A DNA stretch of 64,000 nucleotides. Origin: Glomus cerebriforme. Lineage: Eukaryota > Glomeromycota > Glomeromycetes > Glomerales > Glomeraceae. The position numbers were made by a program, and so were the translations under genes. The notes beneath the pieces are model-generated. The model was not told where the DNA came from. It saw only the letters and a list, made by a program, of their open reading frames with translations, and did not search any database. This document shows positions 103 through 58,241 of the stretch, in pieces; position 1 is the stretch's first letter, and every line of letters starts with the position of its first letter. The DNA is taken from NCBI GenBank assembly GCA_003550305.1, contig QKYT01000257.1, forward strand, positions 25,172 to 89,171. Reading direction: 5' to 3'.

Positions 103-963
103 TTAAATTGATCCATCTATAGTTCCTAAATATATTTTTTTTCTGAAACCTGCAATACTATGAATATCAAAAAAATTATTATTATTATTATTATTATTTT
201 TTAAAAAAAAAAAAATTTCAAATAATCATTTCATTTACCTTTTCAACGCGTCAATATTCATTGGTTCATCGGCGATTTCAAGATCTGATGTAGATTTACA
301 GCGGAAAAAAACCCAGTTTCTATTTTTCAAACACGGAAATAATCCTTCTAATTTCTCTTTGATTCTATCATCATCGAGGCAAGTAAATGATCTCACCAAA
401 CCAGCGTTACGTAAGGTTACAATCCTAAAAAAAATATATATATTAAGTAAATGGAACAATGGACGATCAATGTAACTGTGGCTCGTCGCTTACCTTCTTG
501 GGATCTTTGGCGTTAGAACCCCATAAGGCAAACAATGTACAATGAAACTAGTGGCACGCTTTTTTTTAGCATATTTATTACTAGCCACACCGATATTATA
601 AGGTCTAGCATTAATTTTATTTTTTCTTTTATTTCGTCCTCTGTTTATTTCATTGGCGGTATGAACATTATTTAAAGAATTTGTGTCATGAAAATTTCCA
701 TTATTTGGATAATGATTAATTTGATTAATTTGATTATTATAAATTTGTAAATCAAAAAAATTATTAATTTCAGTATGATCGAAATTTTGGATTTCATAAC
801 CAATATTCGACAGAGTAGTAAGAGTATCCATAGTTTGATAAGGTGTATTTGATGCTTGCAAAGGTATTTGAGGAACCTGAAGAACCTGAGGAACCTGTTG
901 AGTGTTTGAACAATTACAACCACAACCACAACCACAACCTTGACATTTTCCGTAAGACCCCAT
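103..963 (-). CDS. Family gene 1: Cys-rich N-terminus plus conserved C-terminal domain, 3 exons (236 aa)
   Basis: Function not recognised. Exons 963-494, 424-239 and 157-103; both introns are GT-AG and phase 2. Residues 7-17 are CQGCGCGCGCN-like, followed by a Pro/Gln/Asn-rich linker and a basic stretch, then the family domain from about residue 138: SFIVHCLPYG, KIPRR, a DDD helix start, LFPCLKNRNWVFFRCKS, and RKKIYLGT near the end. If exon 2 is read through, the frame seems to stop right after LKR, but AAAAG|GTAAAT is a donor and exon 3 matches the third exons of the paralogues. It is the closest relative of the gene at 17.3-17.9 kb in exon 1. No signal peptide or membrane segment is seen. 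Exon structure is inferred from paralogue comparison. Confidence 0.72.
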
Positions 964-1010
964 ATTTTTATTTTAAGGAATTAATTTTTTTTTTTTACCC
1001 TTTATATATT
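964..1010 (-). promoter_or_regulatory. Promoter block shared with the 17.9 kb gene
   Basis: Just upstream of the start, on the minus strand, lies TATATAAAGGGTAAAAAA followed by ATTCCTTAAAATAAAAA and the ATG. The same order is found at 17918-17970 before the related gene. It looks like a TATA box plus a short conserved leader. Confidence 0.5.
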
Positions 1011-2271
1011 TTTTTACCAAAAATTTAATGTTAAATATTTATCTGTTAATACAGTTATTTCAACTCTATTTTTAGACGTAACCATGTTTGGTCATAATTA
1101 TGACAGATTATCTGTCTATCTATTTTATCAGAAATTACCTGTTATTGATTTTTGATACTTTTACGCCCATCTAAATTTATCTGTTATGACCAATAAACAT
1201 TTTGCAGTTGTTAATGAAACGGTTTTTAGCCAGTTTTCATTAATAAATTATCAGTTATTCTTGATCGAGAATGCATGATGATTATCTTTTCTGCAGTTTA
1301 TCTATGTTTTCCTTGATGAAACACCTTTTTATTTATCCACAATAAAATCATATTGCAATTTTTAATTGAAAATTCTTATTGGATCTTTTTTTTTAGAAAT
1401 ATCAAAATTTTGTGTAACATTGTTTATGTACTATTACTATGTACTATTACTTAAACCGTTCTTTTTTTTTTTATAAGCTAGATTCGGATGTGAGATAAAG
1501 AACAATATATAATATTTAAACCTTCCAAAATTGGGATTCGAATGTTAGATGTGAATGAAGTCTGAAATTATAAATGATATAGTCTCCCCAAAAAGTTTTT
1601 GTTATACGTATATTGAAACAATGACTACCAAACTAAAGTAAAATGTTAGCAAATAATAAAACATAAAAATACATACCAAGTGTTTGTTACAACTCATTGA
1701 GATCATGTTGTTGATCTATTCAATTCATCCTAAATGTGAGGTTCACCTATGTTTTCAATAAAACATTTATTCTGGATTTCAATAAATTCTATAAAAATTC
1801 GCTATTTTTACTGCCGCGACAGCCAAACGTTTTACGTGATTTTGGCCAAACATTCTCAAGTTATTTGCAATTACCCTATCTGAAATTGTTTATGATAGCG
1901 ACTTTACTCTTCTGATCATATTCCGCTTCCTCACTCTTGTTGATTATAAGCATGAGAGAATTATGATGATTAAAAAAGCTTAAACAAAATCTTCTAAAGA
2001 AACAATATAAATTTCCACGTGAAACTACACATTATATTACAGAATTGTGCAGATTTTCGTTTATCATAAAATTTCATTGGAAATCTGTAGGAGATTTACT
2101 AGAAATTCAAGAAATTATTAATACTAGCGCAGTATAACTGTACAAAAAATTAAATTAAATGTATAGAACATCTATGAGACATCGTCCTACAAAAAAAAGG
2201 AACAATTTTTTTGTTCTCAAAAGAAAATTTTGTAATAAATATAAAATATAAGTAATTTTTTTTTAAACAAA
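1011..2271. other. Intergenic, AT-rich, upstream motifs
   Basis: No gene seen. TTATCTGTT occurs at about 1039 and 1177, with further CAGTTA/CTGTTA-like words between 1040 and 1260, upstream of family gene 1. The rest (1300-2270) is low-complexity AT-rich DNA. Confidence 0.5.
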
Positions 2272-2696
2272 TTAAATAGTAGTTAGATCGAATATACGAC
2301 ATATTAGCCATACTGTGTTCGGTTCGATTCTTAAAGTAAGTAAAAAAAAAATCAATTAAATTAATAGAAAGATGATAAGGTAAAAGATATATACGATTAA
2401 AAAATATTTTTTAACAAACCTCTGATTAATCCACGTGTAACCTCGATCCATTCCAAGTGTTTCATCATAGGATATTCGGTTCCGCTTGGATTTCCATGAT
2501 GGTTCCCTGTAAATTTCTTTGTAAATCTTTAAACAGCAAAAATTTCCTAATGCTAAAAAAGAAACTGTGTCTGAATTAACAGAAATCCCGAGAGAGCAAC
2601 CCTTATTACTGTCAATACTAACGTTAGGTCCATCGCGTAAAATATTTGCTATTTGGTCACGTGTGATACTCCATTCAAAAACATACGAATAATACG
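2272..2696 (-). CDS. Candidate unrecognised gene fragment, two 3' exons
   Basis: An open frame of about 115 codons without an ATG start runs on the minus strand here, with visibly higher GC than its surroundings. It fits an internal exon 2696-2420 (acceptor TTATAG, donor AG|GTTTGT, phase 2) joined to 2329-2272 (acceptor TTTAAG), which ends in TAA after 19 codons in the right phase. The peptide includes ITRDQIANILRDGPNVSI and YDETLGMDRGYTWINQR. I do not recognise the family. Upstream exons were not found, so it may be a relic or the 3' end of a gene broken by the repeat at 3.4 kb. Confidence 0.33.
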
Positions 2697-2699
2697 CTA

Positions 2700-3388
2700 T
2701 AATTACAAAAAAAAAAGATTACATATCGATAGAATCGCGGTCTGGAATACTTCATATTACTATCGTCTAAGATATCTTAAGAATCTTTTTGATCTCAAAA
2801 AATAAAATGAATCTGTAATTTTAATTAATTTGTGTGGCTTTCTTTTTTTTTTCTTTATATTTTTACTTTTACATTAGATGGATTGACGTAGTTCGATAAT
2901 CAACATTCTTTATAACGAACTGACGGTTCTTTTCGGAATATAGTAATTTGCTATGTTTTATATACCGATCTTATAAAAAATTTGAGGGTTCGTTATATCC
3001 AGTTCTTCCTCTCAATGGAAAAAAAAATCCAATATAGATTATGACTGTAGTTGAAATTTTGGAACAATATTTAAATTCAATTTCGGGCATTGTTGTTCTA
3101 AATAGATGGAAGAATATACAATGTTAATGCAAATTTATCGTATCTATATATCTATTTTAGAGAATTTATATGCGGTTGAATTTTAATAAGGAGCCCGCCC
3201 ATTAATTTTTAATAAATGTATTCTAAATAAAAAAAAAATAGATCAAATATTTAGAACATAGCTTTGGCCGGCATAAAATAGTTCTACTAGAAATCGGAAT
3301 TTTTATAAATTCTTAGATTTCTTTAAAAAATAAATTATTGGATAAAAAAAATCTTAATATCATACCTCCTTGGTGCATCTTTATCGGG
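2700..3388. other. Intergenic, AT-rich
   Basis: Nothing supported as a gene. If the gene fragment to the left is real, its missing 5' exons would be expected here, but I could not identify any. Confidence 0.4.
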
Positions 3389-3753
3389 TCTGGTACGAAA
3401 TCCCGACGCTACATAATCCCGACATTTTCAAAATCCCGAAATTGGTCATCAATAAACGAAATAAACTTTTTCCGTGGTGCATAACCTTTTACTAGTCTTT
3501 TACTAATGACTAAGAATTTAAGATTTTAGTTGCTGGTTATTTTATATTAATTTTAATATTGCAAGTAATTTTATTCATATTTGAATGATAATATATTTTT
3601 ACAAATTAACTTTAATATCGGACAAGTTTCAGGATTGTATATTGAATTGGATTTTGAAAGTGTCTGGATTTGTACCAGTCGGATTTTGCAATTTTGGGAT
3701 TTTGTCAGTCGGGATTATATAATGTCGGGATTATGAGTTTCGGGACTGAGCTA
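3389..3753. mobile_element. MITE-like element with ATCCCGA repeats at both ends
   Basis: The left end has TACGAAATCCCGAC followed by two more AATCCCGA units. The right end carries inverted copies (GTCGGGATTATATAATGTC, TTTCGGGAC). The interior is AT-rich and non-coding. The TACGAAATCCCGA end is shared with the inverted repeat at 48045-48181. No clear target duplication was found, so the boundaries are approximate. Confidence 0.5.
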
Positions 3754-4570
3754 TAATTTGTAATAATTGTATTTGAGAATTCTATGTAGTATGATATTGG
3801 CGTTGATATGAGGTCTAGAACCAAATTTTTAATTAAGAGAGTCAGGAAAAATTTTTTGATAATTATTTTTACAAAATGCTTGGATTTAAATACAATTTAT
3901 AAAAATTTCCACAATCAATTTTTTTGCATATTTGTATAAATGAATACTATACCCCATAGTAGTAAAATTCATTTGGTCATAACTTGTACAATTCATTCGC
4001 GGCATTCATTATTTTTTTTCCTAAATTTACCTTTCCTTTCGATTGCTCTAATTGGATATTTGAATTCCGAATTCCGATTTGCACCTATGTATGGCTATAG
4101 ATATAACCAAAAAAGGGCAATCATTTTAATCATGTAAACAATAATAATAGGTATTACAATAAATATAAATAAATATGAGACTTCCTTGTTTTTAAAAACA
4201 GTTCGTCAAAAACGTTATAAAAAAACGACTCAAAATATTGCCAATGAAAAATAAAAATGAATTTATTGTAAAATAATTCAATAATTTGGTTCGAATACCT
4301 CTATATTATTTATTTCTTGTGAGTTAGAAGAAAGTATAAAAGGTTTCGTATATATATTTTGAATTTCGTTACTAGAAACTTTGGATTTTTTTTTTAAATT
4401 TCGTTCCATTTTTTTAATTTTTTTTTANTTTATGTGGGGAAAACAATGTTAATATTTCATACAAAAATATTGGATGGAAACCCTTTATCTCATAAATAAA
4501 CTTAATCAGTTTATTGTAATAAAATATTAACATATAAAATAACTACTCATTTATGCGTAAGTAATATAAT
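3754..4570. other. Intergenic
   Basis: No gene seen. A 65-codon open frame at 3940-4137 on the plus strand has no supporting features. It is most likely chance. Confidence 0.4.
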
Positions 4571-5593
4571 TTAATTATCGGTAATATCTTCTAAAGCCCT
4601 TAGTAATGGCCCACTTTCCGTTCCTATATATAATTTATTCCTGTAACCTGATATTCTAATAATTTAATAAATCAAAGATGAGTATTAAGTTACATATATA
4701 TAATAGTTTATTTTTAAAAGTATTTACCTTTTTATATGTTCAAAACGACATGTATAAATTGGTACATCGGCAAGTACAGGTTTTGATGATTTACACTTAT
4801 AGAACCTCCAATTTTTATCTTTCAAGTGTGGATGTAATTTTTCTTCAATCACACTTTTGATTTGACCATCCGAATCTCCGTGGAAACGAATATTTACTCT
4901 TAATCCGGCTTCCTCTAATTTTGAACCACTAAAATTTATTTATAATTTTAATTAATCTTTTAAAATAAACAATAATTATGTTATCATAGATCATAAATAT
5001 ACTTGCCGTCTTGGTATTGTTAATTTCTCTCCAACTAGGCAAATAACTGTATACTCTTCGTTCGTAGAAGGTACGTTGTTAGGTTGATGATTTTGTTGAT
5101 CATTTTCGAGAGGTTCAAAGCCAGAAAGCTGTTGTTGAACATATCCAAAAACAAATTGATTTTGTTCATTATTTTGTTGATCATTTTCATAAGGTTCAAA
5201 GTCAGAGAGCTGTTGTTGTTGAACATAATAATTTTGTTGATCAGAAAGAACATATTGATGTGATCCAAGAACTTGTTCATGATCATTTTCGTGAGGTTCA
5301 AGGCCAGAAAGCTGTTGTTGAACATATTGATGTGGATTAAACGCGTTAGTGAGTTGTAGTCTTCGAGATTCTTCGAGTCGTTGCATTTGAACCAATATTT
5401 CAATCGTATTATTAGTATTAAAATTATAATGAAGTGGTACATAAATAATTAAACCATTTGATGTAGTTAATCCTGTATAATTAGGGATAATAGGAACCAC
5501 ATTTTCACGATAGCTTTGATGACGTCTCCATAAATCATCATCACCAGAATGGATACTTCCTAAAGTATTATCTGGATTTTTATCTCCCATCAT
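4571..5593 (-). CDS. Family gene 2: Gln-rich repeats plus conserved domain, 3 exons with a GC-AG intron (290 aa)
   Basis: Function not recognised. Exons 5593-5007, 4928-4728 and 4655-4571. The N-terminal part holds three imperfect copies of YVQQQLSGFEPxENDQQN between about residues 88 and 175. The conserved domain follows: YTVICLVGEKLTIPRR, then LEEAGL, DSDGQIK, LHPHLKDKNWRFYKCKSS, and ISGYRNKLYIGTESGP at the end. Keeping the family's phase-2 junction needs a GC donor (CG|GCAAGT) for intron 1; no GT donor gives the right frame. Exon 3 is longer than in the paralogues, adding about ten codons after the GP. No stop or frameshift is seen, so it is probably functional. Confidence 0.7.
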
Positions 5594-6372
5594 TTATAAA
5601 TTTAGAGGTAGTTTTATTTTAATTTATTCCTCCTCCTTTTCTTGAATTCGAAAAATTTTTTCATGCCATTAAATACTTTTTTTTTACTAACAGATGATGG
5701 TAATTAAGAACAAATAATTTATTATATCTGTTCTACATTTCGTTAACTGGAACAGTTATATTTAGCCATTTTTTTGTATCACATAAATGATCGGCAAGAA
5801 AAGTTAAGTGTATAACAGATAATTCTAGTAGTTTATTATTGATTAACAGTTAACAGTAATTCGGATTTATTTACTCATTGTGCATATTCGTGGCCCGCAT
5901 TATAGACATTAATTATATTTTCTCTTCGGAGTATTTGTCATTTGAAAATTTATCATTAGGAATGTAGAAATTTGAAATGGTCAGTTGAAATTTGAGTTAT
6001 AAAAAAAATTAATAAATTTTTCGTCTACAATTATTATCACAAAGTAAAGATTTGTGATTTGTATTAAAAGATTTAAAAGATTTCTATTTCGATTATTTTT
6101 TTATATAATGTAACACAAAAAAAGTAAATCACATGGAGTTACAAAACAGTATTAACTAAAATATGTTTTTATAGAAGTTAATTTTAACCAAATAGAATAT
6201 CAGTTATTAGGAAAACAAAAAACAAAATACGACAATCGAACTATATTTTATTATTAATAAAATGGATAATGAAAATAGATAAATAGATATACTGTATATA
6301 ATGGAATCTGAACTAAAAATGGTATGATTTTCCCGATTTTCGTCCATTTTTTTTTTAAATTAATATTGATGT
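5594..6372. promoter_or_regulatory. Upstream region of family gene 2
   Basis: No gene seen. AACAGATAA lies at about 5814, with AACAGATGA (5692), AACAGTTAT (5751) and AACAGTTAACAGTAA (about 5845) nearby. The same word types recur upstream of the other family members. From 5900 on the DNA is plain AT-rich spacer. Confidence 0.4.
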
Positions 6373-7266
6373 TTATATTTTAATTCCTACATACAATTTC
6401 TTTCGAAATCCCGATATTCTAATAATGTAATAAATCAAAATTTTAGAATTTTACGCGAGCACAAATCGCACATGAAATATAAATTACCTTCTTAATTCAC
6501 TAACGGACAATATTGTTACATTAGCAGGCACGAGTTTATGTGATTTAGATGGTATCCATTTCCAGCATTCAGGTAAATTAGTAGGTACAAGTTTAAATGA
6601 CCTTGATTCACACTTATAAAATTCCCAGTGGCGATTTCTTAGGGTTGGAAAATTTTTTTCGATTAATGATCTGATACCAAAATCTGTATCATCATCAAAA
6701 CAAAGGGTTGCTTTTTCAGCTCTAACATTATATATATATATGTACGCAGGAAATATTTTTAAAAAGAAAATTCAATTAATAAAATAAATACGGATGTATA
6801 AAAATATATATTCCCATCTCCATAGCAAACGGCTAAATTATACAATATATATATACTATATATAAATATCATACTTTCTCGGTATTGGTCTTGGTCTATT
6901 ATCAATAGCAGGTGGTAAACGAATAACTTCAAAACTAATAGAATCTTTTGCGGGGATGTGACCATTTTTATGTATATCTTCTCTTGTTTGAAAATCCGAA
7001 ATAATAAACGGTTGAGGATCAGCAGATGCAGCTGGAGTAATCGATTGAGACATGGTTGATGTTGACCATATTTGTAATGGAGGTAGGCTTTGATATGTGG
7101 TTTGTGTTTGTTCAGGATCATTCAATGAAGAGAGAGCAAGTCCATTTTCGAAATTTAGATCAGATATATTTTGATTTAGATACGCTAGTGGTCCGACAAT
7201 TTTATAACATATATTACAAACCACATAATTCACACGTTCACACTCGCACATAGTATGATTACTCAT
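6373..7266 (-). CDS. Family gene 3: CxxC N-terminus plus conserved domain, 3 exons (223 aa)
   Basis: Function not recognised. Exons 7266-6875, 6721-6488 and 6418-6373, both introns phase 2. The start gives MSNHTMCECE and then CNIC, possible metal ligands. A Pro/Ser/Gln linker leads to the domain: SFEVIRLPP, RPIPRK, CFDDDTDFGIRSLIEKNFPTL, WEFYKCES, LVPANVT and, from exon 3, ISGFRKKLYVG. Without splicing, exon 1 would run into KYDIYI and stop, so the donor GTATGA and the domain's continuation in exon 2 decide the model. It belongs to the same subgroup as the genes at 10.3, 14.1 and 42.5 kb, which lack the extra AGL segment present in the other subgroup. Confidence 0.72.
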
Positions 7267-7310
7267 TTTTTATGTAAAAGGGAAGAAAAAATTTTTTTTT
7301 TGATATTATA

Positions 7311-7413
7311 CAAACTCCATTTAAATAATTTCTAATTTTTTGACCCCCTCCCCCCTAAAAGGTATTTCTAATTTTAGTGAACTGGCTCTATCTATCATAT
7401 AATTATCTGTTCA
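7311..7413 (-). promoter_or_regulatory. Promoter blocks shared with the 11.1 kb gene
   Basis: Two short blocks upstream of the start are nearly identical to those before the gene ending at 11118: ATTATTTAAATGGAGT (minus strand, 7315-7330) and GAACAGATAATTATATGAT (minus strand, 7394-7412). The spacing to the ATG is similar in both genes (about 50 and 130 bases). The second block contains the GATA-like word AACAGATAA. Confidence 0.5.
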
Positions 7414-7620
7414 GATACAAATAATAAATACTTTATAGATGAGAAAAAAAATTATGAATAACTATGTTTTTAATTAATTTTGGTAGGAGTTTTGTGGCGC
7501 GTTTATATTTCACATGTTAAAAAATAACTTGTTAATATTAAACAACAATAAATATCTCATGTCAAGTAAGAGATTTATTTTCCAATTAAAAAAATTAAAA
7601 AAATTTTTGGGGGGTTTTTT

Positions 7621-8760
7621 TTACAGATTTATATATGCTTAACAGTTAATAATAATTTTTTACAGATATATATATGCTTAACAGTTAATAATAAGTGTGT
7701 TATTCGATATCATAACAAAGAAATCACGCGGTAGTGCGGTAGTTATTTGGTTTGTTTACAGAATTTTGACTGGATGTACATTTTATTTTAATAAACGAGT
7801 ATAGATCTTATCTTAACAGTTAAGATTATTGTTTTTAAAAACAGTCGGATAAGCCAATTTTTGTGATCAAAGTTACACAATTTCATCAACGAATAATATG
7901 TAGTCAATTTGGTTTGCATATTAGGTGTATTCCAATTTTGGGAAATAATTGAGTCATAACATTAAAAATAAATTAGATTACATAAACTAAATGTACACTT
8001 TAAAATTATAAATAGAAAAACTAATTCAAAACAAAATTATCTAATGGAAACACTTCCGGACATATAAAAAATAATAACTTTTGAAAGGTAATTAGGAATT
8101 TTTTTAATTCCTTAAATTCCGTTTTAAAGATTACATAATATTCAACCGATATATTATCAAAATTAATCAACAGTTAATCCGTAAAAAAAATATAATTATT
8201 TGTTATTTTTACAGATATATATGCTTAACAGTTAATAATAAATGTATATCCATAATGTTATCCGATATTATAACAAAGAAATCATGCGGTAGTGCGGTAG
8301 TTATTTGTTTTGTTTACAGAATTTTGACTGGTTGCATATTTTATTTTAATAAACGAGTATAGATCTTATCTAAGATTATTGTTTTTAAGAGCAGCCGGAT
8401 AAGCCAATTTTTGGAACAAAGTTACACAATTTCATCAACCGCGAATAATAGTTACATATTAGGTATTCCAACTTCCAAGTTTGGAAAGAATTGACTCGTA
8501 ACGTTAAAATAAATTAGATTATATAAACTAAATGTACAATTTAAAATTATAAATAGAAAAACTAGTTCAAAACATAATCTTGCTAAAATTATCTAATGGA
8601 AACACTTCCGGACATACAAAAATGTAAAAATAATAACTTTTGTAAGATAATTAGGGGCAAAAGGAATTTTTTTTACGGACTTTAATTCCTTTAATTCCGG
8701 TTTAAAGATTATCTAAGCATTATATAATATTCAACAGATATATCATCAACAGTTAATCCG
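7621..8760. repeat. Tandem direct duplication, unit about 525-550 bp
   Basis: Copy A (about 7660-8181) and copy B (about 8209-8760) align along their length. Both start TACAGATATATATGCTTAAC, both contain ATGCGGTAGTGCGGTAGTTA-type sequence and CTAATGGAAACACTTCCGG, and both end CAACAGTTAATCCG. A shorter third start lies at 7621-7656. The copies differ by small indels and substitutions, so the duplication is not recent. No coding frame is shared. Confidence 0.8.
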
Positions 8761-10044
8761 TTTATCAATTTTGTGAATAATAAAGCGTTTTATTCTATTG
8801 TTGTTGTTAAAAAAATTTAATATTTTTCGTATCACTTATTTATTATCAGTTATAGTGATAGACACATAAACATTAACTATCTTTGATTTGTTAATCGAAT
8901 TTTCTCAAATGATTTGGTAAATCGCGTAATTTATTTATGACTCATACTTTGTCAAATTTTTAATAGTTATAATTAATAATTAAAAATGAATTTTTTATGA
9001 AATATTTTTAATTTACTTTTTTGTATTTTTTTTTCATTTTTAATAATGTACAAATTGTCACACGGAAAAATATTTATAACTAATGTGCCACATTATGACG
9101 AAACCTTATGTCACAAACATATGGACAATACCGAAATAACTTTGTTTTTAATAAAAAGAGACATAACTGTTTTATTAGTTTTTTTTTCCTTGTTAATTAA
9201 AAAAAAATGTAGTGTTAACAGATAAACTAAAACATGTGAAATAGTCAAATGTAAATCTAATTTATCAAAAAAATATAATTAATTGAAAGATTAGATTTTC
9301 TCTTTTTGTATAATTATCTATTTGAATTCGAGATTGGATTATTTATTTACATCATCATATATTGATAGGCATTTAAAGTAAAAAAACATCCGATACGCTA
9401 TTTGCTGTAAATTGCATAAATATTTGGTAAAATACAGGAAGGGACGGAAAAATTAAATCGTTGTAAATGGAAGCATAAATTTTTAATTAACAATAATGCC
9501 GCTCTAAATTACAAGATCTCTTGTATTCCACTAAAATTATAAACAAAAGAAAGTATTCCCAAAAATGGTTGGGAAAATCATGAAGTTTTTTTTTGTCCGC
9601 GTTATAGGCTTTATAACTTTCCAATGTAAACATACCTTCAATAATAATATGTTCTTTTCAAATTTTTTTTTTTTTTTTTATACCGAATTTGCTATTACTG
9701 TTGAAAAAAGTAGAGAAATAGGAAATCCTATAAGTGGTAAATTACTATAAAAACAAATTTTTATTAGTTTACTAGAATTATCGATAATGGATAAAAATAA
9801 TATGTCAGCCAGCATTATGGAATTAAGCGTGGCGTTTACGTGAGATGTATATATTAAATATTTAAAAAATGTAACACGAACGGTGATGAAAATACCACAT
9901 GATTTTCCCCATATATATATTTTAATTGACGGATGATAAACTACGTAATACGTACAATTTGTACAATATGAAAATTTATGTTCAAAAAATGTGATCAACG
10001 TCCAATAAATGCTAATATCTACCTATATACTTTTACCAAAAAAA
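8761..10044. other. Intergenic spacer
   Basis: No gene supported. AACAGATAA occurs at about 9218. The 106-codon minus-strand open frame at 9678-9998 has the composition of chance AT-rich DNA and no recognisable motif. Confidence 0.4.
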
Positions 10045-10244
10045 GGGGGTCGTCTAAAGCCGTGTTCGATCACGTGAATTTTTATATTACCATGTGACAT
10101 ATAGGTGTGTGACAAATAAATTTTCACACATCGAAAAAATTCTAAGTCCCTGGAATACATAGTAAAAATGAAAAAAAGAGGTGTGACATGGGGAGTGACA
10201 AATTTAAAAAGGTCACGTGATCGAACACGTCTTTAGACGTCCCC
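10045..10244. mobile_element. MITE with about 30-bp terminal inverted repeats
   Basis: The ends read GGGGTCGTCTAAAGCCGTG on the left and, reversed, GGGGACGTCTAAAGACGTG on the right. Both continue into TTCGATCACGTGA. The interior is short and non-coding. Each arm carries a CACGTG palindrome. Flanking A-runs hide the target duplication. The superfamily is not clear. Confidence 0.72.
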
Positions 10245-10312
10245 AAAAAAAAGGAAGGTCTAGTCCTGTCTATGGGCTAACGAGGTGGGTCCAAAATTAT
10301 CGACATTCTTTT

Positions 10313-11118
10313 TTATACAAAACTTACGTACAATTTCTTTCTAAATCCAGAAATTCTAATAATAATATTATAATAAATCAAAATTTAAATTTTCGAGCGC
10401 GAATGACAACGATATTTTTATAAAATTCTTATTACCTTTTTAATTCCTTAATAGTCAAAGGTACATTTATAACGGCGGGTACAAGTTTATGCGATTTAGA
10501 TAATTTCGACGTGCCAGCAGGTGTAGATTTATGTAATCTAGATGTTTTACACTTATAAAATCCCCATGAAGATTTTTTCAATTCTGAAAATTCCTTTTCG
10601 ATAGATCTTATGATTCCATCAGCCGAATCATCATCAAAATAAATGATTTTTTTTTCAACGCTAACAATATTTTTTTTTAAAAAAAAAGACAATTTTAAAA
10701 TTAATAAAATCAACAATATATACTATATATAAATATTATATTCATACTTTCTCGGTATTGGTCCTTCATCAACATATGCAACGGCAGATTTAAAAAAAAT
10801 CACTTCAAAACTATTTTTTGTGAGGATGCGCCTATTTCTATGATCCTTTTTTTTTGTTTGAACATTTGAACGTAAATCACGTAAATCATTAGGCGCTTGA
10901 GGAATTACAGCAGGTATAACTGGAGTAACAGATTGAGGTATGATTGGTGTTGATAATGTTTGTAAAGGTAAGATTTGATAAGTGGTTTCTGTTAATTCAG
11001 AATCAACCGATAAATAATCCGGATACGTGGCTGGTGTGGCTGATGCAGGTGGAATTACGTAAAATAGTCCATGACATCCAGGACAAATCACATAATTCTC
11101 GTATTCGGTATGAATCAT
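10313..11118 (-). CDS. Family gene 4: CxxC N-terminus plus conserved domain, 3 exons (212 aa)
   Basis: Function not recognised. Exons 11118-10748, 10660-10436 and 10355-10313, both introns phase 2. The N-terminus has YVICPGCHGLF (one CxxC). A Pro/Thr/Gln linker with ETTYQILPLQTLSTP resembles the same part of the 7.2 kb gene. The domain reads SFEVIFF, GPIPRK, IIYFDDDSADGIIRSIEKEF, WGFYKCKTSR, LVPAVINVPLTIKELKR and ISGFRKKLYVSFV (stop). All junctions match the paralogues. There is no sign of decay. Alternative: a relic kept open by chance, but three compatible exons make this unlikely. Confidence 0.72.
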
Positions 11119-11166
11119 TTTTTTTTATGTGAAGAGGTGAAAAAATTTTGAGATTACAAGAATAAG

Positions 11167-11261
11167 ACTCCATTTAAATAATTTCGTGATTCCTCCTTGA
11201 AAGATATTGCTATTTTTGGTAAATGTAGTGAATTGAAAAGTATCATATAATTATCTGTTCA
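11167..11261 (-). promoter_or_regulatory. Promoter blocks shared with the 7.3 kb gene
   Basis: ATTATTTAAATGGAGT (minus strand, 11168-11183) and GAACAGATAATTATATGAT (minus strand, 11242-11260) repeat the arrangement seen before the gene starting at 7266. Retention of both blocks in otherwise diverged flanks suggests they matter for expression. Confidence 0.5.
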
Positions 11262-12778
11262 AAACTACAGATACAGATATATTAAGAATATTAAGATTCA
11301 AGGAAAAAAAAAATTAAAAATAAAGTTTTACTTTATGGTAATAATAATAGGTATAGATCATTTTGGCGCGTCGTATATAGTTATTATAGTTATTACAGTA
11401 TGTCATGTGTCAAAATATTTTTTAGAAAAAAAAATTTTTGAACAATAAAAAAAATTGGGAATTTTCGTAAATATCAGATGTCAAAAAGTAAAATTTTTTC
11501 CCATGTTTTTTTTTTCGCAGATAGGTTATATATATGCATCCGATGTGACTCATCATAATCAAGTTATTATGGTAGTTTTTTTTTTGTTGGCTGAATTTGT
11601 CACGTAATTAATTTACACAATAAATAACAAATATTTTACATATATATAACACATATATGTGCATAAGGTGAATAAGATAAAAACAATAAACTTTTTTTAG
11701 AAATTTATTGAGAACTTAAAGATTGATAAACTACAGAATATTACTCAGAGAAAGTGTTATCGGAACTTCATCTTGTGAATTATCAATAAATAAACAGATC
11801 TGAATGGACTTTTATTATACTTTAAATTCCGAATTTTTAATAATTTACCTTATCTTATCAAAAGATTTTTAGATTTATTATCAGTATAATTTTTTTTATC
11901 GAATAATGTGTTTCTCACACTTATTGTTGTTAAATTTTTTGTTTGTCGGTAACTACTGTATAACTTATTAACATACTATTAATAGAATATTAATAAATAT
12001 TTATCAATTTGTTACTTTAAAAACTCTTTGAAATCAGAAAATTCCAAAATTGATAAGACAAAAACATATTCTAAAAATGGGATTCATATATTATAAATGA
12101 AGATTTATTTGTGTAAATTTTATCTCATAGATATATTTTTTTTCCCAAACCCCCTATTATTTTACCTCATACCTATTAAAAATTTTATGATTTGTTAATG
12201 TTATTGGTGTTTATTATTATTGCCATTTTGTATTTTCATACTACAGTAAATCTTTATTATGTGATACATGCAGCACATCAGCGAACGAATCATATGTTAC
12301 ATTGAATTATTTATGATATTTGTTATATCAATGTATTTTTTTTTTTTTTTATTAATTAATTATACAAAATTTGGAAAAAAAAAATGTTGTCCGTACTAAT
12401 AAACACGTGATAATTAGTGATGTATTGCAAAATTTCTTGATTTTTTTGTAAATATTTATTTAATTCATCTTTTGAAACAATGATTATAGTTTTAATTTCG
12501 TTATCTTTTTTTAGTCTATTTACAAAATAATAATATGTAAATGTTTTCAACCGAAAACAAAATAAACTTTGCTGAATTTACTTTAAAGTTATGGATATAA
12601 AGCTTTGTCATAACTATATTTTCTATGTATAGAGATAATAAAAAGTTCTAATCAATAAATTTATGAATTGTAAGAATAATCTACGATTATTTTTCTTAAT
12701 ATGGTCCATATTTTGCTCCTATATATAAAATTTTAAATAAAGCTACAAATTTTTTAGTCACACGAAAAAAAAATATAA
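11262..12778. other. Intergenic spacer
   Basis: AT-rich, with long A and T runs. No gene supported. The small open frame at 12356-12550 has no recognisable features. Confidence 0.4.
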
Positions 12779-12869
12779 TTGGCACTGGTAAAATCTCCAT
12801 TCAACCGTTTTCTTAATTTCATCATCTGCTGAATCATTTTTTAAATCGGCTTCTTCCAATTTTGCACCA
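12779..12869 (-). pseudogene. Relic of a family exon 2
   Basis: After an acceptor-like ATATTAG the minus strand reads GAKLEEADLKNDSADDEIKK, then TVEWRFYQC. This follows exon 2 of the gene at 4.6-5.6 kb, but the LFPxLKNR segment between helix and Trp strand is missing through an in-frame internal deletion. No exon 1 or exon 3 was found next to it. Confidence 0.6.
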
Positions 12870-13617
12870 CTAATATTTATTTGTTTATTTATAATTACAA
12901 AATATTTTTATCAAAATTTTTGACTAAAACTTTGTCAAGTAAGAATTAGATTGATTATAAATAAATACTTATTTTTGGTTTTTTTTTTTGACTAACCATT
13001 CCAAATTTTAGTAATCGAAATAATCTATCTATTATATTTGATATTATTGTTCAAATTCAAATAAACTATCCGTTTTGAATAATTATCGTTATTAAACACT
13101 CCGAGGATAATGCCTAGTCTGGCCCGCATTATGCCGATTTTTAACTGGCATTATATTCGAAAAATAGGTATGTCTTAAGGCATTATAAACTTGGCCCAAT
13201 AGTGCAGGCCGCTCGTGATCGTCTAGGCACAACAACACGATTAAGATAAATTGTTTCTTGACAATAAAATTATAAAAAAAAAATCGGTAATGAACTAATG
13301 TCATAATATAGGTATCGTTCACAAATGAGACACAAAATTATAAATGATGGCGAATTAAAAAAAAAATTTAGTACAATAATTTATTTATAAGAAATAAAAT
13401 TATCAGATCAGCTTGATATTAACAAGGGTTCTATGTATTGAAGATCGATACTTTTGCATAAACATGATATGTGATTGAAAATTAAAAGATTCCAAAAAAA
13501 AATTTTATATTTAATCGGTTTATCGAATAGAGTTTCTTTATTAAATTCATCGTGCGTGACATGTATAGGACGAAGATCAGAAACCTCTACGTGATAAGAA
13601 TGTATATACAGTGATTA

Positions 13618-13780
13618 CAGTCAACCCTCTATAATTGCACACCCCTTGGGACCATCAAAATTTTCATAAAAGTGCTTTTTAGAGAGGGTGTGCATTTATA
13701 GGAGTAAAATAATTAGGGATCGTATGAGCTGCATTTAGGGAAAGTATACATAATGAGTGCAATTTATGGAGGGTTGACTA
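13618..13780. mobile_element. CAGTC-type MITE (pogo/Tigger-like), TA target site
   Basis: The left end is CAGTCAACCCTCTATAATTG and the right end, reversed, is TAGTCAACCCTCCATAAATT. TA lies on both sides. The related element at 26428-26586 has the same ends. It is about 160 bp with no coding capacity. Terminal CAGTC and TA duplications are typical of pogo/Tigger elements. Confidence 0.7.
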
Positions 13781-14075
13781 TACCATAAATAGCTAGCTCA
13801 TAATTATAAAAAACAATGATGGATTTGTCTCCCGATTTTCATACATTTTCCAAAATTTCCCGCAAATATATCATTTTTGATTCGCCTCAACTATTCGTCA
13901 CGCCAATGCATAATATAAATAAACATTATACAGTACTGCTATAAATGGGGCGTGATGTTTTATGCGGTGACGCTATGGTTACACGAATCAAAACGATATA
14001 TTTGCAAATTTCCCGGATGTTCCTGGGAAACCGTGATGACAGCCGAAAAAAAAACAGTTCTAGGATGGTTTCTTG
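13781..14075. other. Short spacer
   Basis: No gene supported. The plus-strand open frame starting at 13945 runs antisense through exon 3 of the neighbouring family gene and is a shadow of it. Confidence 0.5.
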
Positions 14076-15030
14076 TTATATGCACGTAACAGGCTTATAT
14101 TTTAAACCCACGTACAGCTTGTTTCTAAAGCCCGACACTCTAATAATATTATTAAATTTTAAATTCAATAATATATAAAAAGGAAAGACATTTTTTTTTA
14201 ATAATTTTATTACCTTTCTTGTAATAATTCATTAACGGTTGATACATTATCAGCAGGTACAAGGTAATGCGATTTAGGCTCATAGGGTTTAACGCTGGCA
14301 TGTACAACTTTATATGATTTAAGCGTTTCAACTTTATAGAATTCCCATGGAGATTCTTTTAGTTGTGGAAACAAATCTTCGACCGATAGTCTAATTCCTT
14401 CAGCTGTATCATCATCGAAACAAATGTCTTTAACTTCAGCTCTAACATTTATTATTAAAAAATAAAGTCAATTGAATTAAGAAAACAAATAATATAAAAT
14501 ACAGATGTATATGTATATACATACTTTCTTGGAATTGGTATTTTATTCCCAGCATATTCAACAATTGTTGAAAACGGAACATAAATCAATTTAAAAGTGA
14601 CTGGATTTTGATTCCTATTAGATGCTCTTTTTTTGGGATTGCGATACGGAACGTGATCATTTTGATGATCAATAAACGTTTGAAGAGTAGGTATCGACTG
14701 AGGTATAATTGGCGTTGCTGGAGGTGGACTTTGATAAATGGGTTGTGTTTGTTCAGATCCATTTAATGAATTTTGGATTCTTAAAATCTCATTCGTATAT
14801 TCATTTATCTTATTGTATAGGTAATTTGAACGCTGAATAAGAGAATTGTTATTTGCACCAATTCGGCCCGAATTTGAGTTTAATGGTTGAATGATTTGTG
14901 TTTGTTCAGATTCATTTAATAAATTTTGATACTCATTACTATCCTTACTTAACTCATTGTATAGCCAATTTAAATAATAATCAAGAAAATTATTATTTGC
15001 ACTAATTCGACCCAAATTTGAGCTTTGCAT
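14076..15030 (-). CDS. Family gene 5: internally repeated N-terminus plus conserved domain, 3 exons (265 aa), start shifted
   Basis: Function not recognised. Exons 15030-14525, 14441-14214 and 14139-14076, phase-2 introns. The N-terminal half contains two copies of about 45 residues beginning SNLGRISANNN and SNSGRIGANNN, each ending ESEQTQ or GSEQTQ. The domain reads TFKLIYVPFS, IPIPRK, ICFDDDTAEGIRLSVEDLFPQL, WEFYKVET (the usual Cys is Val), LVPADNVSTVNELLQER and VSGFRNKLYVG. Alignment with the 7.2 kb gene shows its ATG-AGT-AAT-CAT start is AGG-AGT-AAT-CAT here, so that start is lost. I chose the next in-frame Met (MQSSNLG). An upstream in-frame Met at 15126 is possible. Confidence 0.65.
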
Positions 15031-15435
15031 TGATAGAAATTCGATATGATTACTCCTTTTTTTTAAAAAAAGTTCTATATATAAATACTTTTTTATTTGC
15101 ATTTTAAAGATTCGTATTATCTGCAAGTAGATCTAATCAAGCATTGTATTAAATGATTAAATGTATTTTACGGGGCTCCGTATGCTTATAAATTAGGTTA
15201 GCAATATTATGTCAAGCTTAAGAATTAATTATATAAAAAATTTATAATCCGCCATGTCTATCTGTTAATCAACAGATATTCTAAAAAAGGAAATTTTACA
15301 AAGGAATATAATGTTGAAATTCCTTAATGTATAGTATTATGTACTTTAAAGTACATAGAGATGCATGATTGGACAAGCTGCACATGTACACATGGAAAAA
15401 GAATTTTCTGACAGTTAATAATTTAAGTTATAAAA

Positions 15436-15502
15436 AACCCTACAAACACATCAGGAACGTCACATGTCATGCCATTTGCTTTCTGATGCGTTTGTAGGGG
15501 TT
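15436..15502. repeat. Short inverted repeat (67 nt hairpin)
   Basis: AACCCTACAAACACATCAG pairs with CTGATGCGTTTGTAGGGGTT with two mismatches around a 28-nt middle. It could be a minimal MITE or a recombination remnant. It is non-coding. Confidence 0.6.
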
Positions 15503-16244
15503 ACCATATAAGTTATTACTAATTTTGGTGAACAGTTAAATTAGAAATGACAAAATTCCTTTTTTTTTGCAGATGTAAACGGCTAAATTCTAATAAATTC
15601 ATATAATGTTACGAAATATCATGTTTTAATGAATTTGACTGGATGCATTTCGCTCATCAAGGTATTAAAACATTGACATATTGTTCATCGGTAAGTTTAG
15701 TTAAGCTATAGTTCATCACACATAAATGTACTTTACGAACTTACTTAATCAGTTTACGTAATGATAAATTGCAGCAAAATTTATTTATTCAAACGGTTAA
15801 TCCTTCTGCCGCCATCGTGTAATTATTTGTTTATCTGTCAATCCGAACAGATAGGGTGATAAAAATCCCTAATTATCACATAAGAAAAAAAACAATTCTA
15901 AAAAAGGAATTTAAATATTCAATGTAATATACTCAAATATTTTCTATTTACTTATTATCTAATCACCTTTGTTGAATTCCCTTAATGATATTGTATTTGC
16001 GCTGTTAAACTACATAAAAAAAACTTTAATACTAGAGACCTCATTAGTTCATGCAGATGTCTGCATCAAAAAATCTGATAAGCATCACGTGCATCACATG
16101 TATCATGGGGTGATACTGCGACGAATTACAGTACATGACGTTATATCTATATTTCTTTAAAATAAAAATATTTACGCGCACAGTAAATTTCATTACAAAA
16201 AATGATAATTAGCTCTATGAATATGAAATGGTTACGGTACATTT

Positions 16245-16331
16245 CACCGAAGTCTACTTTGCCGAAACCCATTTTGCCGAACCCGTATTACCGAAAGACA
16301 AATGTCGTATTACCAAAAATCATTTCACCGA
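16245..16331. repeat. Degenerate short tandem repeat, TTTNCCGAA
   Basis: Successive units CATTTCACCGAA, CTTTGCCGAA, ATTTTGCCGAA, GTATTACCGAA, GTATTACCAAA and CATTTCACCGAA occur at intervals of about 10-19 bases. The pattern is non-coding and differs from the AT-rich surroundings. Confidence 0.65.
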
Positions 16332-17917: not shown

Positions 17918-17970
17918 TTTTTATTTTTAAGGAATCAGATAAAATTTTTTTTACCCTTTAAATAATAAAA
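17918..17970 (-). promoter_or_regulatory. Promoter block shared with the 1.0 kb gene
   Basis: Minus strand ATTATTTAAAGGGTAAAAAA, then GATTCCTTAAAAATAAAAA directly before the ATG, matching the block at 964-1010. TTATCTGTT follows at about 18026. Confidence 0.45.
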
Positions 17971-42491: not shown

Positions 42492-43341
42492 ATGAATCAA
42501 GCCTCCTCTATTATGAATCTTCAAGAAAGATATGTAGTCGCTCAGAATATAACGCGTGATCCATACCAAAGTCTACCATCATTATCGATAGCAAACTATG
42601 TATCAAGGTCAAATGAACCTGGCTTACAATATAGCGATTTTTATTTTTGTGAACCAACCACGTATCAAAGTCCATTTATTCGCAGTTCAGATGATATTTT
42701 AACACCCCTATCAATGGTTCAGCATAAGCCATCTATCAAAATTTCATGTATGAAATGTATTGAATAGTCACAAATCACCGATACCAATAACTCTGAAGCA
42801 CAATCTAATTTACAAAATAATAATACTAAAATTAATCAAATATTTCTTAAAACAAAAAACAATAATAAATCTATCAAATTTAAATTTATTTTGTAATTGA
42901 GATTGTAAGATATCGAGAAAGTACAGTATGAATATTTATATATATATAAGGATTACTGTATATTTATTTCTAATTTTTTTTAAAAAAAAAAATATTAGTG
43001 GTGAAAAAAAAAGAACTTTATTTAGATTATTTGACTGATTAAAAGATCAAATTTCCACAACTGTTAAATAGAGACTGGGTATTTTTTACATTATATAAAC
43101 CTGTGCCTGGACGCAAATCATCTAAATAACATACTTTTTGTACCTGCTGATGCACTACGGACTGTTAATGAATTAAAAAGGTAAATATATATTGATATCT
43201 CTTTTTCTCTCAAACAAAAGCAAAGAAAAACCTACTGACGATGACCCCACCTATCATGAAATTTAAAAATTTACTATTTATTTTATTATTATTAGTATTT
43301 TGGGGTTCAGGAAAAAGTTGTACGTAGGATTTTTTTTTTAA
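42492..43341 (+). pseudogene. Family copy 8: decaying, three exons still recognisable
   Basis: Exon 1 starts MNQASSIMNLQERYVV, contains the family linker pattern (DPYQSLPSLS) and has a stop at about 42766. Its domain end is degraded to ISRKYSMNIYI with a donor-like GTACAG, compare PIPRKY in the relatives. Exon 2 (about 42999-43180) shows a stop after LDYLTD, then KFPQLLNRDWVFF, loss of the KC motif, another stop and a conserved end VPADALRTVNELKR. Exon 3 (43296-43341) is perfect: acceptor ATTATTAG, then SILGFRKKLYVGFFF and stop. The copy is on the opposite strand from the left-hand cluster and directly follows the Tigger element. Confidence 0.7.
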
Positions 43342-43680: not shown

Positions 43681-45033
43681 TTATTTAGTTACATCTCCTA
43701 ATCTACGTGACAATACCATCTCTTTAGTGACGTGTGGAATCAATCTGCTGGTGTAGATTGCTCCAGGATCTCTTTCATGCATTTGTGTAAGTTGTTTTTC
43801 ACGATAAATCTGAGCATCCTCAAATTGTTGCTTTATATTATCTTTCAAACCTTGGGCTCCATACCAGTCTCTGATTGTGATGATGATTTCGCTAGCCGTT
43901 GGTCTTCTTGATGGATCCTCGCTCCAGCATTTTTGCATAAGTTCAGTCCAGCACGATGGTGTGCAATGAGGGATACTAGGTCTCAATCCATTACAAATGT
44001 CACAAATCAGATTAATATCATGGCCACGATTCTGAAATGCTGGTTCTCTAGCAGATAACTCCCACATGATGATACCTAGTGCATAAATATCACTTGCTTG
44101 TGTGTGTTGCTGATCTTTATCAAAAAGTTCTGGTGCCATATATGGAATTACACCATACTTTCCATCTTCTTCATTTTCACCATGGTTGATGTGTTTGCAT
44201 AGCCCAAAGTCTGAAATAGTTACAAATCCGATATGGGTGTCTGGTAAAGCTGAGATAGTAGGATCTCCTGTGAGAACATTACCACTGTGCAAATCGCGAT
44301 GAATCCACCCTTTCTCATGAATCGACCGAAGTCCAATTGCTATTTGGTAAAGGCTATCGACACAATTAGACCATTTAATGCTACCCTTTTCTGCCTTGAA
44401 CGTGGAGCGTAAGTTACCTTTGTCATAATACCACATGACGAATGCATATTCATGTGTGTATGGATGTTTGGTAATACCTATAACCATTGAAATACCAAAT
44501 AGAGCATGTTGACATGTAAAGTTTGCTTTAACCTGATACACAAAAAAATAAATAAATTAAAAAGTACATAGAAAAAAAATACATAAATAATAAAGAAATT
44601 ATGGAGACTTTGATACCTCATTAATTATGTCAGCGATATTGGTCTGTAAACGATTTAAAGTTTTAAGAGCAACAGTGCAAGGTCCTGTTCTGACCTGGTT
44701 ATGTAATATTGAGTGGCTACAATTTTTATCTTTTAGATAAATACGAATTCCCTTTGACCACGTTGCAGTATACACAGAACCAAACCCACCATCTTCCAAG
44801 TGGTTCACATTTGAGAGTTCACTTGGTTCAATCCACTCCAAGTACGTATCATAAAGGTTTGTATGGAGCTGAGTTTGTTGAATGAATTCATCAATTAACT
44901 TATTACCGCTTGTCCATTCTCCAAACTTTGCTTGAAGTTTTTTTGGATCACACACTTCACACCATTGAAAAAGACTATTATCTAGATTAGTGTAATTTTC
45001 TATGCCGCATTCTTTACAACTATCCATTTGCAT
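43681..45033 (-). CDS. TKL-type protein kinase, two exons (422 aa), apparently intact
   Basis: Exons 45033-44617 and 44532-43681. The junction (INE|VKAN) is phase 0 with GTATCA and CAG borders. The N-terminus has two CxxC pairs (C6/C9, C25/C28), a likely zinc ribbon common in glomeromycete kinases. The kinase domain: glycine loop LEDGGFGSVY (79-88; the first Gly is Asp), Lys124 in VALK, HRDLHSGN (217-219), DFG (247-249), YMAPELF, DIYALGIIMWELSAREPAF, and WTELMQKCWSEDPSRRPTA. All catalytic residues are present, so it is probably active, phosphorylating Ser/Thr or Tyr in the cytoplasm. Substrate unknown. It diverges from the lectin-like gene with 432 bases between the two starts. Confidence 0.88.
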
Positions 45034-53439: not shown

Positions 53440-54156
53440 AACATGATTAGAGGTTGGAACCGATCCAAAAATCCTTAACCGATTAATAATCGATTAACAA
53501 GCTACCGTAACTGAATAATAATCGGTTAATTAATCGGTTAATTAATCAGTTAATTTGTGATAAGGTTAATCGGTTAATTAACTGGTTAATATATAAATTT
53601 CACACACATTTTCGCTTACAAACATATAAATTAATGTTCCGAAATATTTATTCATATATAAATACATACTTAATTACAAGATTTATAATTAATGATTTTT
53701 TTAAAAAAANNNNNNNNNNNNNNNNNNNNNNNNNNNNNNNNNNNNNNNNNNNNNNNNNNNNNNNNNNNNNNNNNNNNNNNNNNNNNNNNNNNNNNNNNNN
53801 NNNNNNNNNNNNNNNNNNNNNNNNNNNNNNNNNNNNNNNTATATTTTGAATTTCTTTTAATAAAAAGAATTTCTTGGAAAACTTTTGGACTAAGGCGCGT
53901 CTGTTTATTTGACATGCTATTTCCAGCATCTGAAAATAAGCGTTCGCTTGGAACAGAAGTTGCCGGGATAGACAAGTATTATCTATTTTAAGATGATCTG
54001 CATTTTTAGCCGATTAAATTAATCGGTTAATTAACCGGTTAAATTAATCGGTTAAATTAACCGGTTAACCGATTTTCGAGGTACTTTAATCGGTTAACCG
54101 TCTTAATCGATTAATTAATCGATTAACCTTAATCGGTTCCAACCTCTAAACATGAT
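53440..54156. mobile_element. Internally deleted hAT element with perfect 8-bp target duplication
   Basis: The element occupies 53448-54148. Ends: TAGAGGTTGGAACCGAT on the left and ATCGGTTCCAACCTCTA on the right, perfect inverted repeats of 17 bases. AACATGAT lies on both sides (53440-53447 and 54149-54156). Subterminal TTAATCGGTTAAT-type repeats flank a short core with a 130-base N gap (53710-53839). Confidence 0.9.
53840..53985 (-). pseudogene. hAT transposase C-terminal dimerisation fragment
   Basis: The minus strand reads [20 protein letters not shown], then [20 protein letters not shown] and RN. This is the hATC signature (xIPATSxPSERxFSxAG, NxxRxxLxPxxxxxLxFLxxN). Upstream of it are a stop and the element end, so the rest of the transposase is lost. 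Confidence 0.85.
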
Positions 54157-55505: not shown

Positions 55506-57284
55506 ATTAGGGATTTGCTTGTCACGTGTACCAGATTATGACGCTCCAGACTTGACAACGTTTTCTATTTCCATAATTATAAAGTCACGTGATACTACAA
55601 ATCGAATGCATAAAACATCTAAGTTTAAATCCTAATATTAGAAACATAATTTAACAAACAGAATAACTAAGATCTGGGTACTCTGGGTATGTGTTCATGG
55701 AACAATTTATCTGTTTTGTTACGTTTCTATTACTAATTTTGGCAGGTTATTGAGATGATGAATGAGACCTTTTTAGGCATGCAGTATAATGTAATCACGC
55801 GAGCAAAAATACATTACGTAGTTAGGATACATACGCTCATTAGGCGTATAATACTTATAAATAATAAATAAATAAAATAAAATAAATAATTAGATCGTTT
55901 TATACCTTTGTGTAAAAAAAAAAAAAAAATACCAAATAGTTATAAATAAAAAATTGGAAGGCAGTTCTTTTTCTTATCATTTCGTCTCACATTAAGTCAT
56001 CAACCATTAAATCATAACTACAATATAGATTTCCAATTGTAAAACGGTTTATAATAAATAATTCTTGGCCTTATTTTAACTTCAAACTGTCTCACTACCT
56101 TATTCATTTCTTTACTAATATATAGAATAATAGAATCACAAGAGCAACCAAAAAAAAATTTACAAATAGATACCGGCTTTTTTTCGTTGTGCATCAAATT
56201 CACGCGCTTTGTATCAGTCTCAAAATGACAACATTAATTCTAAAATTCCTCCCTTATTTTCAATCAGTAATTAATGGAAACGGAATGGAAAATGGTGTAA
56301 AAGATATTTTTATTTTATTTTATACAAAAAAATTATTCTTTGTATAAATAATTATTTATTTATTAATGAAACATTAGAAAAGCATATATAGAACAAATAT
56401 AAATTATTTTATCTTTCTAAATATTATTACAGTGTAATGCAATGCTAACAACTTACAGTACTCTTCCTTTAGTATAAAATTTATTTCAATCAATGCATTG
56501 ATCTATACGACAATAATTAAAGATTTATATTCTCAGAATCTTATTTACATAAAAAACTTTGTTCAACATTGTCCGTGTGAAAATTTTTTTTTTTTGTCTC
56601 CCAAAATGAAAAACAAACCGATTATTTACATATTAAACGTTCTTGGCAAAGATTTCTTCAGTTTCCGAACATCTGTGTTTTTATCTGTTATGTTTTCTAT
56701 TTATAATAGATTTCAACCGAATTTTTCCTTCATTTAGATATATCCGTTGACCAGTTACAGTAGTTACTAGTTAATGTGGATTTTACCAATATTTATACTC
56801 CTTAATTTTCTGTAGTTACAATTGACTTTAATGATAGGCATGCAGGTTCCACTATTTTTTACTTTATTTTGGCGGGAACACTGCGATTATCTATTTTAAG
56901 TCAAACCGAATTGTTCTATAAATGAATAAAGTTTAAACCATTACATTGCATATAAAATATATAAAATATATAAAATTAAATTTATATTAAATTTATATTT
57001 TTAATAAAACTATATTTGTTATTAAAATAACAAGTGGTTTTTTGTACCATGTCATTCAAATGTTTATAAACAAACGTTCGGTGTCTACCGAGATCGATTA
57101 AAAAAAAGATATATATATATATAAGAAAAAAAAATTTTTTTTCTCAATTTGATAGAATATGTGTTTGTTTATGAGCAGTAAGTTGTCAGTAGTTTCAGAT
57201 AAACATAAAAAAAAAAAATAATAATAATCACATGCAGTTATTCACTATTATAAGTGCATTTTAAACTGCAATTTTACCAAAACT
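55506..57284. other. Intergenic with TTATCTGTT words
   Basis: No gene supported. The 9-mer occurs at about 55707 and 56681, upstream of the family gene at 57.5 kb. The rest is AT-rich with homopolymers. Confidence 0.4.
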
Positions 57285-57293
57285 AACAGATAA
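57285..57293 (+). promoter_or_regulatory. AACAGATAA motif upstream of family gene 7
   Basis: An exact AACAGATAA about 180 bases before the start codon. Its core AGATAA fits the GATA-factor site WGATAR. It is one of the cluster of such words near family members. Confidence 0.4.
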
Positions 57294-57471
57294 ATTTTTA
57301 AACACTTAAGCACTTAATTACGGCTCAATTTCAATTTTCACCTTGCTAAAATAAGGTGTATTATGATATAAAGTTTGAAAATCACAACATGATGAAAACT
57401 TATAAAAAAAACCCCTTCATATTTTCAAAAAAAAAAAAAAAAAAAAAATTCAAGACATTCTTAAAAAAAAC

Positions 57472-58241
57472 ATGGCTTATCTTGGATATTATTCTTTAAT
57501 TCCGGTGATCAGATATAGCTGTGGTTGCATAATTAAGTTATGTGACCATTACGAATGTATTCATCATGAACTCAGACCATACGTTCAATATCTCCCCGTT
57601 TTAACTCAAAATCATACAAATTTTGTTCCGGAACTCGGATACACAGAACCACTTAATAATCCATTTAACGCAACAGACCAAACGTTGTTAAATAGTTATG
57701 ATGAATCACAAGTTACTTTACAAAATACGGGGAGTAGACCTGAAAAACCCTTTCAGTTATATGTTCTACCTTGCGGAAATTTAACTCCAAATATTCCTAG
57801 AAGGTAGTGTTTGATAATTTATTTTAATATTATTTATTTCCTTTATTAAATATATATATTATTATTCATATATGTTTTTAAATATACTGTATTAGAATTG
57901 AAAGTTTGAAAATTAAAGGATTGTTGAAACAAACTTATTTCGAAGATGATTCAGATTCCGGAATTAAAAATAAAGTTGAATCATTATTTCCATGTTTGAG
58001 GGGTAGAAGTTGGCGATTTCTTCGGTGCATATCAACGTCGAAACTTGGAATTGCTACCGAACCAACCAATGGATGGTCTATCAGAGAACTGAAAATGTAA
58101 ATATTTTATTTTATTTTATTTTATATTTTATTTATTTATTTATTTATTTTTTCTTTTTGTTATGAAAATTTGATTATTAGGATCGACGGGGTTCGCAAAA
58201 AAATATATATTGTGACTACAGATGGACCCATTCATCTTTAA
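57472..58241 (+). CDS. Family gene 7: Cys-containing N-terminus plus conserved domain, 3 exons (197 aa)
   Basis: Function not recognised. Exons 57472-57803, 57896-58096 and 58181-58241, phase-2 introns. The N-terminus reads MAYLGYYSLI and has SCGC, CDHYEC residues and His pairs that could bind metal. The linker is short. The domain is complete: FQLYVLPCGNLTPNIPRR, IKGLLKQTYFEDDSDSGIKN, VESLFPCL, SWRFLRCISTSKLG, IRELKM and, in exon 3, IDGVRKKIYIVTTDGPIHL. This copy revealed the third exon, because its intron 2 and final exon are clean: AAAAT|GTAAAT and TTATTAG|GATC. It stands alone on the plus strand, about 40 kb from the left-hand cluster. No decay is visible. Confidence 0.75.

Follow-up and report, generated by a model that had tools for sequence, protein, structure and literature searches.

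A 64,000-nucleotide window of the genome of the arbuscular mycorrhizal fungus Glomus (Rhizophagus) cerebriforme (positions 25172-89171 of contig C366; the genome spans 112.5 Mb) contains a clustered gene family whose products carry a shared domain at or near the C-terminus. On the basis of structural models, this domain very probably has a ubiquitin-like beta-grasp fold. The family members in the window comprise six complete ATG-to-TAA genes, one truncated copy, one decayed copy and one exon relic, and a common motif, AACAGWTA, lies upstream of the six complete genes and the truncated copy. These results suggest a co-regulated, lineage-specific family.

Gene copies in the window and elsewhere

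Gene models were built from reading frames and splice-site modelling. The copies, named by their approximate position in kb and given in window coordinates, are as follows:

g0.1: 103-963, minus strand; exons 494-963, 239-424 and 103-157; complete; CxC-rich N-terminus; long (NAGL) subgroup
g4.6: 4571-5593, minus strand; exons 5007-5593, 4728-4928 and 4571-4655; complete; Gln-rich middle; intron 1 modelled as GC-AG
g6.4: 6373-7266, minus strand; exons 6875-7266, 6488-6721 and 6373-6418; complete; Cys/His N-terminus; short subgroup
g10.3: 10313-11118, minus strand; exons 10748-11118, 10436-10660 and 10313-10355; complete; CxxC N-terminus; short subgroup
Exon-2 relic: 12761-12907, minus strand; reads SGAKLEEADLKNDSADDEIKKTVEWRFYQC
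g14.1: 14076-15030, minus strand; exons 14525-15030, 14214-14441 and 14076-14139; complete; short subgroup
g17.3: 17307-17917, minus strand; exon 1 at 17526-17917, exon 2 from 17454; truncated copy with a CxC N-terminus, no homology beyond WRFF and no exon 3
g42.5: 42492-43340 (approximate limits), plus strand; decayed copy with in-frame stops, most of the start of exon 2 gone and at least one frame change within exon 2
g57.5: 57472-58241, plus strand; exons 57472-57803, 57896-58096 and 58181-58241; complete; long subgroup

The g0.1 and g6.4 models are identical to the deposited proteins P0001 and P0002, respectively, and the first protein matches G. cerebriforme C1645_826140 across its whole length. 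The deposited protein P0003 has exons 1 and 2 in common with g14.1, but its 3′ part corresponds to the relic at 12761-12907. Remodelling of the last exon of g14.1 brings back the family motif, and the 3′ end of P0003 is regarded as a misannotation. An initial annotation of the window had listed seven gene models, one decaying copy and a relic; the family was found at all eight named positions and at the relic, with the tally corrected to six complete genes, one truncated copy and one decayed copy. The domain described there as split is simply one whose coding sequence contains two introns at constant positions.

The relationship between the copies exceeds chance similarity. A profile of the domain, trained on those same copies, scored the seven window copies at 65-101 bits, and 20 first-order Markov resamplings of the window gave no score above 14.8 bits. 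The copies were also linked by single-protein searches of the genome. By the profile alone, the decayed fragment at g42.5 is marginal (16.4 bits) and the relic is not significant (7.6 bits). Together with the spliced models, these searches uphold the proposal of a real multi-copy family. The division into two subgroups proposed at the same time holds in large part: seven of the eight NAGL-type (long) rows group in the tree at 87/91, but g4.6 is not placed. The proteins of g0.1 and g17.3 and those of Rhizophagus clarus and Rhizophagus irregularis are joined at 92/93, and 9 of the 12 inner branches are weak.

The family had also been called local. It is clustered in the window, but protein searches of the genome added five loci outside it (C366:90060, C425:54773, C261:133015, C365:117047 and C738:333364), and related proteins are present in two other species. 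The number of coding-like loci is thus at least 12, including seven in the window, with eight on C366 within ~65 kb; this count is a lower bound because the searches score the best candidates only. The C425 copy contains an in-frame stop ahead of the domain and may be a pseudogene. In the C738:333364 region (L052, minus strand), the N-terminal part of the family copy lies in a long open frame and is made up of LSSPFPLAPSLNNNTIINRPPQNMGF-type repeats. The candidate on C775 (E 0.387) was dropped for want of a convincing profile match, and those on C501, C289 and C535 were also dropped as family copies. Among ~5.8 billion proteins, relatives were found in G. cerebriforme, R. clarus (two), R. irregularis (four entries, one of which represents 11 sequences) and one further fragment, in a search that needs shared exact five-residue words and may therefore miss wider relatives. 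None of 57 candidates was a long protein carrying the domain.

The C-terminal domain and protein architecture

AlphaFold models, one for each subgroup, show the same order of elements: strand-strand-helix-strand-strand-short helix-strand. The structural neighbours listed for both models are, by title, mostly ubiquitin-fold proteins, and a crude propensity and moment calculation agreed with the modelled fold in outline. The earlier suggestion, from the sequence, that the domain could be a beta-grasp thus agrees with both models and with the structure comparison. The view that the domain is undescribed was likewise borne out, with no Pfam model at cut-off, no significant sequence relative in the PDB and, one fragment apart, all relatives found belonging to three species. 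Pfam was scanned with sets of 7 and 13 sequences and matches were listed to E 10, although the HMMER filters drop most matches above ~0.1. Besides Metallothio_2 in the first scan, the matches below cut-off were PP_kinase (E 0.039 in the first scan and 0.0088 in the second) and, in single rows of the second, DUF6258, TBK1_CCD1 and Vac14_Fab1_bd; none was accepted. Five proteins searched against NCBIfam gave one match, far under cut-off, and the best PDB match to the domain sequence had an E-value of 0.36. A full-length profile matched TarL in the PDB (E 0.00084; positions 42-113), but this match, presumed to fall on the Asn/Gln-rich linker, was rejected as low complexity. A viral structure library yielded nothing at E ≤0.001 and 14 matches up to 10.

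In 12 of the 14 alignment rows the domain retains a glycine preceded by V, L or I; the other two rows lack it. In the P0001 model this glycine sits within the last strand (residues 226-231), and no row has a di-glycine after this strand. The domain is C-terminal, with 2-16 residues beyond the glycine in 10 of the 12 glycine-bearing rows; in the remaining two, C425 and the C366 copy at 90 kb, the open frame extends 40 and 56 residues past it.

The N-termini are more varied. In all three species, g0.1-type N-termini are rich in CxC. Others carry CxxC or Cys/His motifs, and inspection by eye revealed no Cys cluster at the start of g4.6, g14.1 or the C738 copy. The g17.3 protein scored 17.5 bits against a Pfam cut-off of 23 for metallothionein (Metallothio_2, E 0.0082), and because this match lies under the cut-off, metal binding by the Cys-rich N-terminus is kept as an inference from sequence. 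The middle region is Asn/Gln-rich with basic stretches, has low confidence in the predicted models and is probably disordered. In the C261 copy, five exons with GT-AG introns form an open frame of 915 residues that runs from a protein kinase via IPRK to the domain. The kinase gene (L033:4319-7356) matches the Pfam protein kinase model at E 8e-29, and its N-terminal region contains CxxC. This copy is treated as a predicted kinase-domain fusion.

The shared upstream motif AACAGWTA

To rank 8-mers, positions 1-20 kb and 56-64 kb of the window were taken as family regions. In these, AACAGATA ranks first after simple repeats (23 observed versus 2.6 expected). When simple words, words seen fewer than 10 times and words expected less than once were dropped, the top four 8-mers were all versions of AACAGWTA (z 12.6, 9.2, 7.5 and 7.2), with the limit that the motif was found in the same data used to test it. 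Control regions peak at other words, with z of 7.8 for window positions 20-56 kb and 6.8 for other loci. Genome-wide, AACAGATA occurs 6234 times (0.055 per kb) versus 3804 for the reversed control, and its density in the family regions is 0.8 per kb. CACGTG is also over-represented in window positions 1-20000 and 56000-64000 (16 versus 2.9 expected).

The sites concentrate ahead of the genes. ACAGATA or ACAGTTA occurs 17 times in the seven 300-bp segments ahead of family starts, two promoter pairs of which partly align, compared with 10 times in 34.7 kb of window positions 20-56 kb. The nearest gene-oriented ACAGATA lies 76, 131, 137 and 133 bp before the starts of g0.1, g4.6, g6.4 and g10.3, and 228, 109 and 180 bp before those of g14.1, g17.3 and g57.5 (distances accurate to one or two bases). 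The upstream sites in the window are:

g0.1: 1039-1185; cluster of ACAGATA/ACAGTTA, four sites ≤300 bp from the start
g4.6: 5725-5853; cluster, four sites ≤300 bp from the start
g6.4: 7403-7823; one site ≤300 bp from the start (the nearest, at -137), more beyond
g10.3: 11251-11280; cluster of three sites
g14.1: 15259-15540; two sites ≤300 bp from the start, the nearest at -228
g17.3: 18026-18066; pair of sites
g57.5: 57286-57293, plus strand; one site, at -180

Upstream of g6.4, a local duplication visible by eye (7600-7900 and 8200-8450) repeats motif-bearing DNA. Of the three outside copies examined, one has sites within 300 bp; the C261 and C738 starts were not included.

Inverted pairs of the form TATCTGT-N3-26-ACAGWTA are found at 61 distinct genomic positions (96 rows, against 32 for the control). 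Seven lie in the window, where 0.03 are expected, and six of these stand ahead of family genes; g14.1 has two, one of them 0.8 kb away. The seventh belongs to an Asn/Gln-rich open reading frame that is not a copy of the domain:

59725-60333, plus strand; Asn/Gln-rich open reading frame with the motif 228-260 bp upstream, including the inverted pair

An eighth pair, also on C366, precedes a second Asn/Gln-rich single-frame open reading frame (L065:3221-3829, minus strand). Both frames share PG(F/L)EIII, and a BLASTP comparison between them was not significant (E 0.39).

Proposed role, alternatives and neighbouring features

The explanation that we favour, at somewhat better than even chance for the reading as a whole, is a clustered birth-and-death family of Rhizophagus-type arbuscular mycorrhizal (AM) fungi in which the domain serves as an adaptor or regulator. 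The family would evolve by local duplication and decay. The domain would act as a non-conjugated protein-binding module by which the protein docks onto a partner, bringing a kinase with it in one copy. Its role would probably be regulatory or in signalling, and the Cys-rich front may sense or hold metal or anchor the protein. Expression of the clustered copies is probably turned on jointly through AACAGWTA, often present as inverted pairs, and a single transcription factor could drive the cluster.

Among known ubiquitin-like families, one of the nearest by structure is the PB1 domain (p62/SQSTM1, atypical PKC, NBR1), which has the beta-grasp topology, was the best or near-best structural match for both family models, and has a kinase association that is echoed here in one copy. 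PB1 domains are marked by an acidic OPCA motif that follows strand 3 (type I) or by a lysine conserved in strand 1 (type II). Inspection of the family alignment by eye, with the strands of the P0001 model, found neither: the acidic FDDD comes after strand 2 and before helix 1, and strand 1 has no conserved lysine. Pfam PB1 was also missing from the matches listed at E up to 10, within the filter limit given above, and we consider it unlikely that the domain is a divergent PB1 that pairs head-to-tail with a second PB1 in the manner of kinase scaffolds. Only slightly less probable is that the proteins are DNA-binding regulators acting on the shared motif themselves, which would make the cluster autoregulated. 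The Asn/Gln-rich middles, the basic stretches ahead of the domain, the Cys-rich N-termini of most members and the presence of the motif before all seven window members would fit such a role, but Pfam listed no known DNA-binding family, and beta-grasp domains are usually protein-binding. RA, RBD, UBX and USP-type ubiquitin-like domains showed no detectable sequence similarity to the family.

The remaining explanations have very little probability. A true modifier would be a UFM1-like protein that is made with a long N-terminal extension, cut after the conserved glycine and joined covalently to its targets. UFM1 and other ubiquitin-like modifiers differ from the family, in which the glycine as modelled for P0001 lies inside the last strand and not in a flexible tail, two rows lack it, no di-glycine is present and a long extension precedes the domain; no sequence similarity to these modifiers was found. 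The already low probability of this explanation was reduced further because two copies have long tails past the glycine. For the same reason we lowered, to a similarly slight chance, that of a private AM-fungal regulon in which UFM1-like domains, mostly processed at the glycine, are set on metal-sensing N-termini and a kinase under one dedicated DNA element. Kinship with the crinkler header of AM-fungal effectors is just as improbable. The RiCRN1 header of R. irregularis, a species with many crinkler genes, is likewise ubiquitin-like and modelled as a beta-grasp, a domain thus already described from this genus, but it is reported to be N-terminal and to carry the motifs LxLWKV, AFPVDI and HVLxxP (PMC6131194). 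The family domain sits at the opposite end of the protein, Pfam listed no Crinkler match, and none of the header motifs as given there was seen by eye in the family alignment. It is equally hard to believe that the genes are mostly decaying duplicates with no present role. The truncated copy, the decayed copy and the relic in the window, the stop before the domain in C425 and a flat codon-position pattern point that way, but six window genes are complete with usable splice sites and relatives are kept in two other species.

The fold is one already known. Neither the family nor its pairing with these N-termini nor the promoter element turned up in the libraries and open-access literature searched. 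Lineage-specific genes to which no fold has been assigned are numerous in AM fungal genomes. For one such family there are now a fold prediction, relatives in two species, a candidate control element and a copy predicted to be fused to a kinase, and specific tests are therefore possible. To our knowledge, few promoter signals have been described in this fungus; if the shared element is real, it identifies a gene cluster under coordinate control. In the open-access literature, a search for Rhizophagus with beta-grasp returned PMC6131194 alone, and nothing was found on this family or its protein names.

Rfam and tRNA scans of the window gave no matches. Runs of N occupy 24693-24957, 41068-41947 and 53710-53839, and the long open frames across them on both strands are gap artefacts. 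Other features lie between or near the family copies:

27371-28033, plus strand; kinase-like fragment between family copies, just under the Pfam cut-off
32154-32597, minus strand; BED zinc finger exceeding the Pfam cut-off, possibly transposon-derived
43681-44556, minus strand; protein kinase gene between family copies (Pfam E 4.3e-35)
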